Assembly: GCA_017355425.1 (NCBI GenBank)
Contig: CP070233.1
Coordinates: 3,637,501 to 3,701,500 of the forward strand
Direction: 5' to 3'
Source: Dolichospermum sp. DET69
GTDB lineage: Bacteria; Cyanobacteriota; Cyanobacteriia; Cyanobacteriales; Nostocaceae
Length of the DNA stretch: 64,000 nt
The notes below the pieces were generated by a model. That model ran no database searches. It was given only the letters and a program-made list of their open reading frames with translations, and was not told the DNA's origin. The position numbers were made by a program, and so were the translations under genes. Below are positions 57,128-60,880 of the stretch, in pieces (position 1 is the first letter of the stretch; every line of letters begins with the position of its first letter).

Positions 57128-57406
57128 ATGCTTGATGCACGGGAAATTTACCCCCTTTCAGACTTTCAGCGCAATGCTAGACAGTTCATTGAACAAATAC
57201 AGTCAAGTCACAAACCAATTATTCTCACCGTTAATGGTAAAGCATCCGTGATCATGCAGGATGCAACATCTTATCAAGAATTACTCGATGAGTTAGAATT
57301 AGCAAGGTCAGCCGCAAAAATTCGCCAAGGCATAGCTGAATCTGCTGCTGGAAAGACAAAAGATGCGGTAGAAGCATTAGAAGAATTACGGTTAAAGCGT
57401 CAATAA
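57128..57406 (+). CDS. Orphan Phd/YefM-type antitoxin
   Basis: A 92-residue antitoxin: YPLSDFQRNARQFIEQIQ, PIILTVNGKASVIMQDATSY, with a helical tail ending EALEELRLKRQ. The usual partner toxin would begin at or before its stop, but instead the stop TAA is followed at once by the 5' hairpin of the IsrB element. So the partner was probably lost or displaced. It may still act as a repressor. Confidence 0.85.
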   Translation: MLDAREIYPLSDFQRNARQFIEQIQSSHKPIILTVNGKASVIMQDATSYQELLDELELARSAAKIRQGIAESAAGKTKDAVEALEELRLKRQ

Positions 57407-57603
57407 CTCAGGGCTAAAGCCACTGAGCTTGTAAAGAACAAACTTTACGTGTTTGACTAGCCCATCTGAGACTAATCCTGATACGCACTTCCGAATACTT
57501 CCCCAGTTCGGATTATCTGCAAGACTGTTTGTTCAGTCGTTGTTTCAGACAAGACATTTTGGATTAGTTGGGCGAGGGGACTTAAACTTTACTCCAAGGA
57601 TTA
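57407..57603 (+). ncRNA. Candidate omega RNA (HEARO-type) of the IsrB element
   Basis: Starts right after the antitoxin stop. Stems visible by eye: CTCAG..CTGAG (57407-57427) with GGCT..AGCC inside; long-range GGGCTA (57411) with TAGCCC (57458); GTAAAG..CTTTAC; CCGAA..TTCGG. This is where IscB/IsrB elements encode the guide-RNA scaffold, 5' of the protein. The group II intron follows directly, so the 3' end may be lost. The guide would come from the 3' end of the antitoxin gene. Confidence 0.5.
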
Positions 57604-59815
57604 GTGCGATTCGTTGTTAGCTGAATCACGGTATCCAGCCCGTACATAAGCTAACCAACCCAATCTAGAAATAGAGAAAGGTTGAACTCTCGGTCTGATA
57701 TGGGTGCAAGTCCCATCTGCCAGACTCAGGTATGACTCCCTATCTGCCTACGATGACCCGACTCGGCTTCGGGAGGTCGAAGCTAGGAACAGGACGCAAT
57801 CAGACATCCGTTGTGGGGTGACACTGGCGTTAATGGGGAGTTCCCACGGTGAAACAGAGCCTGGAAAAGCAACTTATCGAGAGGCGGGACACAATACAAA
57901 AAACCCGACCTCATTGGAGTTAATTCCCGCCGCATCTTAGTCCCATAGCGGTACGAGTCCAGGGATTCCAGTGGTTGAAATGGCTACACCTAACGGAACT
58001 AATAATCAACCGAGGGAACGAATAAAAACGGATTGAGGGTCTAAGGGCGGTCGAACCCTACAAGTAGGCTGGACGAGCAGCGGAATTCCCTCAATTCGGG
58101 TAGGACAGACCGTAATTGGTCTGAGGTGTTCAGAATACACAAACTGGAGCAGAGCATGATTGGACACAGAGACAACTCTAGTGAATCTTGGAAGACCTTA
58201 CCCTGGAAGAAATTCCGCCGTAACTTATTCCGCCTACAAAAACGAGTGTACAAAGCGGTTCAAGTTGGAGACAAGCGCAAAGCTAAGTCCCTACAAAAGC
58301 TGATTCTGAAATCAACCGCAGCGAGATTAATGGCTATCCGTCAAGTAACACAGCTAAACGCTGGTAAAAAGACCGCAGGAATTGATGGCAAAAAGTCCCT
58401 TACCTTTAAGGAACGCTTTGAGCTTAATGAACTGCTAAAAGCATCCGTTAGCAACTGGAAACACCAGGAACTAAGAGAAATACCCATCCCCAAAAAGGAC
58501 GGTACGATGAGGATGCTGAAAATCCCTACTATTGCAGACAGAGCTTACCAATGCCTTGTCAAATACGCATTAGAACCAGCACACGAGGCAACCTTCCACG
58601 CTAGGAGCTACGGGTTTAGGACGGGACGTTCAGCGCATGACGCACAAAGACAACTGTTCAACAACTTAAACTCCAAAGCCAACGGAACAGATAAAAGAGT
58701 TATAGAACTCGATATCGAAAAATGCTTTGACAGGATAAACCACACCGCCATCATGGATGAACTCATCGCTCCTCATAGCATAAGACAAGGTATTTTCCGA
58801 TGTCTCAAAGCCGGAGTTAATCCAGAATTTCCCGAACAAGGAACACCTCAAGGTGGTGTGGTAAGCCCACTTTTAGCTAACATCGCCCTAAACGGGATTG
58901 AAAGTATTCATAGATATCACGAGAAATCTAATCGCAGAATCACAGACAGAACCCCAAAGGAAAGTATTGTTGAACCAACAATCCGTTACGCGGATGACAT
59001 GGTAATAATACTTCGACCCCAAGACGATGCGACTGAAATACTTGACAAAATCAGTCAGTTTCTAGCAGAGCGGGGAATGAAAGTCAGTGAGAAAAAGACA
59101 AAGCTAACCGCCGCGACAAATGGGTTTGATTTCCTCGGCTGGCACTTCAAAGTCCAGAAAAACGGGAAGTTTAGATGCGTTCCATCAGTGGACAACTTTA
59201 AAGCTTTTCGCAAGAAAGTAAAGCACATCGTCAACAACTCGAATTATGGTGCTACCACAAAGGCTGAGAAATTAGCCCCTGTAGTTAGAGGTTGGAGGAA
59301 TTACCACCGCTTCTGCAAGATGGACGGGTCAAGAAACTCGTTATTCCACATCGAAACAAGAGCTTTCAGGGTATTCAATAAGGAAACTAAGCAAAACCGC
59401 TACACTAGCAAGAAATTACTAGACAAGGCGTTCCCCTCAGTTCCCTGCTCCGAAAACAAACACATCAATGTCAAAGGTGAGAAATCACCTTATGACGGAG
59501 ATTTAAGTTATTGGAGCGAGCGTAACAGCAAGCTCTATAACAACGACACCTCTAAAGCCCTCAAACGGCAAAACCATAAATGTGGTCATTGTGGTCTAAA
59601 AATGCTCAGTGATGAGAAGGTGCATTTACATCATATAGATGGAAACCACCAAAACTGGAAACCAAAAAACCTTCTAGCAATTCATGAAAGCTGCCACGAT
59701 TATATTCACATGAGCAAAAGCGTAAGCTAAGAACGTCGGAAGCTGGGTGCGGTGAAAGTCGCACGCCCAGATTTAACAGAGAGGAGCGCGGGATAATACC
59801 CGCCTTCGACTCTAC
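57604..59815 (+). mobile_element. Group II intron with LtrA-type ORF
   Basis: 5' end GTGCGAT at 57604, 3' end ...GACTCTAC at 59815; 2.2 kb. Domain V: AGCTGGGTGCG, GTGA loop, AAGTCGCACGCCCAG (59741-59771) with the AGC triad; domain VI follows (GCGGGATAATACCCGCC) with candidate branch A. Domain I contains ATGGGTGCAAGTCCCAT. The ORF lies in domain IV. Boundary at 5' by motif, at 3' by codon frame of the downstream exon. Intact, so possibly active. Confidence 0.85.
58156..59730 (+). CDS. Group II intron reverse transcriptase/maturase with HNH endonuclease
   Basis: A 524-residue protein from ATG 58156 (MIGHRDNSSESWK). RT fingers-palm with AGKKTAGIDGK, ELDIEKCFDRINH, GTPQGGVVSPLLANIAL and the catalytic IRYADDMVII; domain X around VRGWRNYHRFCKMDG; C-terminal HNH with CGHCG, VHLHHIDGNHQN and ESCHDYIH. 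All active-site motifs are present. The protein promotes splicing and retrohoming of its intron. A GTG start 10 codons earlier is possible. Confidence 0.96.
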   Translation: MIGHRDNSSESWKTLPWKKFRRNLFRLQKRVYKAVQVGDKRKAKSLQKLILKSTAARLMAIRQVTQLNAGKKTAGIDGKKSLTFKERFELNELLKASVSNWKHQELREIPIPKKDGTMRMLKIPTIADRAYQCLVKYALEPAHEATFHARSYGFRTGRSAHDAQRQLFNNLNSKANGTDKRVIELDIEKCFDRINHTAIMDELIAPHSIRQGIFRCLKAGVNPEFPEQGTPQGGVVSPLLANIALNGIESIHRYHEKSNRRITDRTPKESIVEPTIRYADDMVIILRPQDDATEILDKISQFLAERGMKVSEKKTKLTAATNGFDFLGWHFKVQKNGKFRCVPSVDNFKAFRKKVKHIVNNSNYGATTKAEKLAPVVRGWRNYHRFCKMDGSRNSLFHIETRAFRVFNKETKQNRYTSKKLLDKAFPSVPCSENKHINVKGEKSPYDGDLSYWSERNSKLYNNDTSKALKRQNHKCGHCGLKMLSDEKVHLHHIDGNHQNWKPKNLLAIHESCHDYIHMSKSVS

Positions 59816-59839
59816 CAAGCAATTGGTAAATTCAATAAA

Positions 59840-60880
59840 TTGGGTATTTTTTATGTACAGCTACAAAAGTTGCCTAGTGATAATAAAACACAAGATTTAG
59901 TTATTGGTTTAGATCCAGGCAAAATGTTTTCTGGCATAGCTGTTCAATCTCAAAAATACACACTACAAATGTTGCATCTAGTTTTACCATTCAAAACAGT
60001 TAAAGACAGAATGGAAAACCGATCTATGATACGACGTTGTAGACGTGGAAGACGAATTAACCGAAAAATATCTTTCAATAAACGTAGTCATCGTCAAGCA
60101 AGATTTGATAATCGTCGGCATTCAAAATTACCGCCAAGTATTCGAGCAAACAAAGACTTGGAGTACCGGATAATTACTTTGTTGCGTGAAATCTACCCGA
60201 TTAAAACTATTGTAATTGAGGAAGTAGAAGCACGAGGAAGTAAAAGTTTCAGCCCTGTGATGGTTGGTCAAAGATACCAAATTAACCGATTGTCAGGACT
60301 AGCAGACATCGTTTTAAAGAAAGGTTGGGAAACATCAAATCTTCGTCAGCATCTAGGATTGCATAAAGAAAAATCTGACAAGTCTTTGCAAATACCAGAA
60401 ACGCACGCAGTTGACGCAGTGACATTAGCTTGCTCTGAATTTATTAAATATCAAATATGGGAAGGAGTTAAAAATCATGGTGCATCCTGGATAGGCGCAG
60501 TTGATGTTACAGAGTCTCGATTCACCATTGTGCGTCGTCCTCCCATTAGTCGCAGGCAATTACATTTGATGACTTTTAGCAAAGGTGGTAATCGTCGGAA
60601 ATATGGTGGATCTACAACCCGTCATGGATTTAGAAAAGGTGACTTTGTGGAAGCCACTCAAGGAAGTAAAACATTCTTTGGTTGGGTTAGCGGAGACACT
60701 GAAAAACAAGTTTCAGTTAGTGATGCTAATTGGAAAAGGCTTGGACAATGTTCCATTAAAAAAGTTAAGTTGATACGACGCTCAACAGGATTAATTGCCA
60801 CTGCGGTTAAAACCGCTCGCGTCGCTTCCCTCTCAGCACGCTTTTTGACTGAGTTTCCCACTTACCGTGAGGTCTTATGA
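59840..60880 (+). CDS. isrB: IsrB-like nickase (HNH-less IscB relative), N-terminal domain missing
   Basis: A 346-residue protein. RuvC-I VIGLDPGKMFSGIAVQSQ; arginine-rich bridge helix RRCRRGRRINRKISFNKRSH; RuvC-II IVIEEVEARGS; no HNH insertion; RuvC-III ETHAVDAVTLA; then the wedge/PAM-side domain RRPPISRRQLHLMTFS and KYGGSTTRHGFRKGDF. Reading upstream stays open as QAIGKFNK to the intron end at 59816; relatives have the RRXRR/PLMP domain before this point, and it was not found 5' of the intron. Start TTG 59840 is a guess. The IsrB family gives RNA-guided nicking. The stop TGA is inside ATGA shared with the aroF start. Confidence 0.8.
   Translation: MGIFYVQLQKLPSDNKTQDLVIGLDPGKMFSGIAVQSQKYTLQMLHLVLPFKTVKDRMENRSMIRRCRRGRRINRKISFNKRSHRQARFDNRRHSKLPPSIRANKDLEYRIITLLREIYPIKTIVIEEVEARGSKSFSPVMVGQRYQINRLSGLADIVLKKGWETSNLRQHLGLHKEKSDKSLQIPETHAVDAVTLACSEFIKYQIWEGVKNHGASWIGAVDVTESRFTIVRRPPISRRQLHLMTFSKGGNRRKYGGSTTRHGFRKGDFVEATQGSKTFFGWVSGDTEKQVSVSDANWKRLGQCSIKKVKLIRRSTGLIATAVKTARVASLSARFLTEFPTYREVL

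Follow-up and report, generated by a model that had tools for sequence, protein, structure and literature searches.

The stretch of Dolichospermum sp. DET69 DNA analysed here (the window, 64,000 nt) carries an element of the OMEGA nickase IsrB at positions 57399–60876, between a Phd/YefM antitoxin gene and aroF. Read 5' to 3', the element consists of an omega RNA (HEARO), a 2213-nt group II intron, and isrB, with an ATGA at the right end that is also the start of aroF; all components named by a first-pass annotation, made from the letters of the window, are present. The genome to which the window belongs (6.04 Mb, two contigs) has Dolichospermum and other Nostocales as its closest named relatives and holds six isrB genes of this subfamily, the window's included. 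The main features are as follows.

57379–57398, + strand: left flank of 20 nt, predicted omega guide, which is the end of the antitoxin reading frame; lies left of the conserved GTCAATAAC at the element start
57399–57603, + strand: omega RNA (HEARO), 5' exon of the chimeric intron; from an RF02033 match and covariation
57596–57600, + strand: Shine-Dalgarno-like AAGGA of isrB, adjoining the last omega hairpin; from reading of the sequence
57604–59816, + strand: group II intron, a chimera of 2213 nt, GTGCG...CTCTACC; ends fixed by the intron-free orthologues L083 and L084
58126–59730, + strand: intron-encoded reverse transcriptase (RT)-maturase open reading frame (ORF), frame intact, spanning the crossover; from Pfam and NCBIfam profiles
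58528–58580, + strand: crossover interval between site-A and site-B introns (nt 925–977 of the intron)
59817–60880, + strand: isrB without its head, beginning inside codon 29 and ending with the stop at 60878–60880; from RRXRR, 8DMB and the ORF
60877–60880, + strand: ATGA right end, where the isrB stop overlaps the aroF start, and NTGA target-adjacent motif (TAM); from right-end comparison with the sister elements

The gene after the intron is an HNH-less IscB-type gene, as the first-pass annotation had recognised. RRXRR is the sole Pfam family in its product (E 3.8e-35), no HNH domain was found there, and its best solved relative is DtIsrB (8DMB, E 4.4e-41, covering 2–327 of 354). The RRXRR match begins at profile position 29 of 174. 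A full-length sister IsrB matches 8DMB with E 1.1e-48, and the NCBIfam IscB model NF040563 gives 66.3 bits for the window protein and 95.1 for the sister, both below its cutoff of 175. The N-terminal PLMP domain is absent from the window IsrB and present in all five sisters (L070–L074). Because the PLMP stretch is missing, the window copy is a truncated derivative and not a complete IsrB. It has lost codons 1–28, and with them the start codon; the first common start codon that is left is a TTG at 59840. The isrB frame is free of stops up to the intron 3' end, as had been noticed, and stays open back into the omega RNA when the intron is left out.

Intron positions in the sister elements define two sites. 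Site A lies between the Shine-Dalgarno-like AAGGA of isrB and its ATG, with the intron standing between AAGGATTA and TCTCTT(T/A)ATG, and is occupied in three sisters, C1:4390, C1:704 and C2:68. C1:704 also has a stop inside isrB, and C2:68 (C2:68991–73356, L073) contains two complete site-A introns head to tail with zero bases between them. Site B lies inside codon 29, after GACGGCA, and holds an intron in one element, C1:1610, which reads as one open frame (MRVPVISVDNTPLMPTKPSRARRWIKDGKGIGKF...) without it; the two sites are 92 nt apart in this element. C1:3372 is intron-free and has a full-length isrB frame. Intron-less IsrB loci of relatives, which the first-pass annotation had proposed to align, fix the intron ends; among the six own isrB copies, exon 1 is missing only in the window. 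L083 (Dolichospermum sp. ST_sed8) is the C1:1610 locus without its intron (98.8% identity over 2788 nt with the intron cut out; flanks 97.3 and 97.7%), and L084 (Dolichospermum sp. UHCC 0259) is the intron-free C2:68 locus (flanks 95.4 and 97.5%). Most simply, these two loci suggest that the introns were gained.

How did isrB lose its head? Several features of the window bear on this question: (i) its left junction, AAGGATTA followed by GTGCG, is that of C1:704, C1:4390 and C2:68 (site A); (ii) its right junction, CTCTACC followed by AAG, is that of C1:1610 (site B), and the stretch between the two sites is gone; and (iii) its intron proves to be a mosaic with one crossover when compared with the other copies. 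It differs from the site-A intron of C1:4390 at 161 positions, one at nt 493 and 160 at nt 978 or beyond, and from the site-B intron of C1:1610 at 67 positions, all at or before nt 924. Nucleotides 1–977 thus follow the site-A lineage with one difference, and nt 925–2213 (1289 nt) are identical to C1:1610. Since the last difference from the B intron is at nt 924 and the next from the A intron at nt 978, the crossover lies in nt 925–977. Starting with the fourth base past the intron, the window's exon 2 departs from that of C1:1610, which argues against a simple transfer of the site-B intron together with its flank.

The intron itself is complete, as had been claimed. It begins with GTGCG at 57604, in agreement with GUGYG, the 5' consensus of group II introns; it has a domain V/VI match at 59738–59815 (RF00029, 51.3 bits) and an intact RT-maturase ORF (RVT_1 1.7e-39, RVT_N and GIIM in Pfam; TIGR04416 298.2 bits, just short of the cutoff of 300). 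The earlier description of this ORF as RT-HNH stands for the RT-maturase, which the profiles identify; a C-terminal HNH-like motif was read by eye, and no HNH family matched. The 3' end CTCTACC (59810–59816) is present in 23 of 23 full-length copies and is fixed by the empty sites at two loci; group II introns usually end in A-Y, unlike CTCTACC here.

Exon-binding sites (EBS) were searched without prior positions, by screening the intron columns for pairing with the exon of the respective copy, scored by permutation z; the screen for EBS1 and EBS2 used 20 introns with distinct exons. The search placed the following sites in the window, together with the matching intron-binding site (IBS).

57598–57603, + strand: IBS1 GGATTA, in the site-A 5' exon; from pairing with TAGTCC at 57938–57943
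57877–57881, + strand: EBS2; alignment column 279, which pairs with exon −12 to −8
57938–57943, + strand: EBS1 TAGTCC; column ~343, the best for exon −6 to −1
57980, + strand: EBS3 (A), mispaired with the exon +1 A; column 385, the best of all columns screened

The EBS1 column makes a mean of 4.55 of 6 pairs (z 7.0), with full pairing in 9 of the 20 introns, and the EBS2 column 4.3 of 5 (z 7.8). The window intron forms 6/6 IBS1-EBS1 pairs, one of them G-U, after an alignment gap is shifted by hand, and 4/5 EBS2 pairs, also by hand. Leaving out the window's own intron, column 385 pairs with exon +1 in all 21 introns (16/21 for the runner-up column). In the window the EBS3-IBS3 contact is A-A and does not pair. 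The EBS3 A is the state of the A lineage and the +1 A that of the B exon, so that the mispair is as expected of a fusion. 3' splicing in the window is thereby probably weakened.

Recombination between a site-A and a site-B intron is the best explanation for the missing exon 1, and we assign it a probability of roughly 0.86. Two related group II introns with different targets would have entered one IsrB/omega RNA transposon, at site A and at site B, so that both once sat in this same element. Homologous recombination between the direct 2.2-kb copies would then have removed one intron's worth of DNA and also the ~92-nt exon lying between the two copies, with its start codon and PLMP motif. What is left would be an omega RNA followed by a single chimeric intron and by isrB without its head. 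Several points weigh against this history. A two-intron intermediate with A plus B was not found at any locus examined, the only tandem being the site-A pair of C2:68. The headless isrB frame is still stop-free, which a long-dead gene might not be. The EBS1 pairing improves only by the hand shift; at the fixed column the window makes 3/6 pairs and the C1:1610 intron 1/6. Finally, the same letters would result if the assembly had collapsed two repeats lying close together.

What else could have produced this structure? The alternative that survives best, at a low probability, is gene conversion or a template switch that involved two different elements, one with a site-A copy and the other with the site-B copy at C1:1610, instead of loop-out from one element. 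It would account for the identity of the 3' 1289 nt with the C1:1610 intron, but the exon 2 sequences of the window and C1:1610 part no more than 4 bases past the intron, so that a conversion tract would have to end almost at the boundary and yet delete exon 1. Slightly less probable again is the assembly collapse just mentioned, in which the true locus would read site-A intron, exon 1, site-B intron and the assembler would have merged the repeats; the genome does contain 23 similar 2.2-kb introns, but its assembly consists of 2 contigs and separates the two abutting introns at C2:68991–73356. That isrB is a functional split gene, its exon 1 before the intron and rejoined by splicing, we consider very improbable: the frame is open on both sides of the intron, but only omega RNA precedes the intron, the exon 1 with ATG and PLMP that all five sisters have is absent, and splicing would yield a frame that lacks an ATG.

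The first-pass annotation had reported that no N-terminal domain precedes the intron. This holds, and the domain is deleted, not hidden; an exon 1 concealed upstream of the intron is ruled out. Its further suggestion, that splicing rejoins the guide RNA to a working mRNA, fails in the window, where codons 1–28 are deleted and the spliced isrB frame for this reason lacks an ATG. The idea fits the sister copies better, because their introns lie between the Shine-Dalgarno sequence and the ATG or in codon 29, where their removal restores the frame.

Given loss of the head by recombination between the two introns, what remains of the element's function? A Dolichospermum IsrB was reported to be active with an NTG TAM, and truncation of PLMP abolished nicking in DtIsrB (PMC9581776). 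The headless window protein is predicted to be inactive, because the PLMP motif is gone and the spliced frame has no ATG. Since the omega RNA and the element ends are intact, they could possibly be used in trans by the sister nickases and by Y1 transposases, for which the genome has 16 PF01797 matches, some of them partial.

The omega RNA claim, and the comparison with the HEARO model proposed for it, were borne out by a full-length RF02033 match at 57399–57587 (50.9 bits, E 4.4e-8), which is under the Rfam gathering score of 83. With this model the six isrB elements of the genome all have omega RNAs scoring 31.5–54.1 bits, and the low score is therefore a trait of this omega subfamily; one scan of the isrB elements matched 5 of the 6, C2:68 falling below its threshold and reaching 31.5 bits in another scan. 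The structured stretch had been placed directly after the antitoxin stop. The match does lie there, but the start is 57399, and the stop codon (57404–57406) is inside the element.

Covariation was assessed in an alignment of 17 sequences, own copies and relatives, with a structure derived from the same alignment. Compensatory changes occur in 25 of the 59 pairs. Paired cells make up 98.1% against 84.4% in shuffles, a share that none of 500 shuffles attains; sliding the partners by 1–3 columns lowers it to 48.9% or less. Further pair types in this alignment are not above shuffles, 485 of 500 reaching the observed count. AGGATTA is invariant in 17/17 sequences, and in intron-free relatives such as L083 and L084 the isrB ATG lies 10 nt beyond AAGGA, which by its letters resembles an isrB Shine-Dalgarno sequence. 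A plasmid search with the omega DNA gave a single partial match of 36 nt. The genome has 70 HEARO matches and 13 RRXRR genes, so that by count most omega RNA copies are without a nuclease gene of their own; several HEARO copies, among them L030, L032 and L037, have next to them just the right-end part of an IsrB gene.

Where did the element insert? The omega guide is 20 nt long and the IsrB TAM is NTGA according to PMC9581776. The left-flank sequence differs among the six own isrB copies; ATGA stands at the right flank in the window and three sisters, and two of the six elements have no aligned right end. The ATGA that the isrB stop and the aroF start had been said to share is confirmed and is also the right-flank TAM. 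A genome of the same genus, G049, has the left-flank letters followed by ATGA, in an antitoxin gene 99% identical to the window's over 271 of 273 nt, then a ParE-type toxin gene (PF05016, E 7.6e-10) and then aroF. Compared with this locus the window lacks exactly 420 nt (L136 1081–1500), namely the toxin gene and the aroF leader. An ATGA follows each edge of the gap, at the toxin start on one side and at the aroF start on the other.

Because the left flank matches the intact antitoxin-toxin locus of G049, the element probably entered at the toxin's ATGA, the 420 nt up to aroF's ATGA being lost, which would be the simplest history. Insertion on the aroF start, as first described, is right for the present junction, but the left flank points to the toxin gene. 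The aroF leader of G049, AAGGAACTTGTAA, is lost in the window; aroF starts on the isrB stop, with a GAGG just upstream, and may now be read by coupling from the element.

Is the intron family partial to OMEGA genes? We assigned the sites of the 23 full-length copies in the genome by the reading frame across each site. Six are in five isrB elements, one in tnpB (L017), one in a relaxase gene and two in iscB sequence, in the same Tyr codon of QGISYKYC (L020, C1:665374–667588; L018, C1:2118213–2120427). These last two iscB sequences are 97.5% identical over 202 and 157 aa to a relative's IscB; the C-terminal piece of L020 matched no Pfam family and was placed by blastp. The genome has 53 TnpB-type matches (51 over cutoff) and 13 RRXRR genes plus a fragment, split matches being merged. 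With such genes taking up little of the 6 Mb, the intron sites seem enriched in OMEGA genes, but copies that share an EBS are not independent. Outside the window there are five copies with A-type EBS; site A accounts for four, including the stacked pair in a single element, and the fifth is at C2:177898, with exon AGAAGGACTC. HEARO stands beside only one of 30 intron loci outside isrB elements, L020 (the IscB locus), in fetched flanks of up to 1.5 kb; the 30 are all 17 such full-length own copies and 13 of those in other genomes of the genus.

A general use of this intron site is not supported. The exact site-A junction occurs in one of 217 genomes of the family, the window's own. With up to two mismatches the junction pattern has matches in 68 of the 217, own included, but its reversed control likewise matched many times. 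The intron had no blastn match in any of the 23 related loci taken from named genomes, of which L101–L103 are truncated relatives; this absence is weak evidence, because draft assemblies tend to break at repeats. At L101 5001 (Dolichospermum sp. FACHB-1091) there is an intron-free isrB with a short deletion near the site-B region.

By title, we found no paper in the open-licence PMC literature describing a group II intron in an IscB or IsrB element. A cyanobacterial precedent for stacked group II introns is reportedly the Trichodesmium twintron; there the introns are nested, whereas the window holds a fusion of neighbours. IStrons, which carry a TnpB-type gene, also invite comparison. They are group I introns joined to insertion sequence (IS) elements, and so likewise combine a self-splicing intron with a DNA transposon (PMC4227781). 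In the IStron as described there, the mobile unit includes the intron, and insertions splice out; in the window a group II intron lies inside the element, and identity with an IStron is ruled out on both counts.

The closer parallel may be RmInt1 and RmInt2 of Sinorhizobium meliloti, reported as group II introns that home into ISRm2011-2 and ISRm17, insertion sequences thus being regular intron targets (PMC5894124). That source proposes that RmInt introns curb the IS and mentions recombination between copies as a possible source of deletions. As with RmInt1, a group II intron would home into a transposon, here into OMEGA elements, with splicing predicted. Unlike in RmInt1, the host is an RNA-guided element and the site lies at the junction of omega RNA and translation start; furthermore, two EBS types use two sites 92 nt apart in one gene, and a fused product is seen. 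The window element resembles the IsrB systems described in PMC9581776 (DtIsrB, 8DMB; DsIsrB) in its upstream omega RNA, its RuvC without HNH, its NTG(A) TAM and a Shine-Dalgarno sequence in the last omega hairpin region. It differs from known IsrB in lacking the first half of the PLMP domain and in having an intron between omega RNA and gene.

Because omega RNA, Shine-Dalgarno sequence and start codon meet at site A, splicing could decide whether the nickase is made, with guide RNA made regardless, and two RNA-based mobile systems are linked there. It is conceivable, though we hold it doubtful, that an intron lineage has specialised on OMEGA elements: it would home to the invariant omega RNA/Shine-Dalgarno site of isrB, make translation of the nickase but not the omega RNA depend on splicing, act as a transposon brake and group II counterpart of the IStron, and by fusion produce elements that keep omega RNA and ends and lose the nickase. 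The window would show how a pair of introns can delete the head of a protein. As one genome holds empty, single-site, tandem and fused copies, and intron-free orthologues of two exist elsewhere, intron control of an RNA-guided nickase is directly testable. Beside another copy of the intron, at L010 144–1214, seven matches to the small RNA NsiR1 stand in a row.

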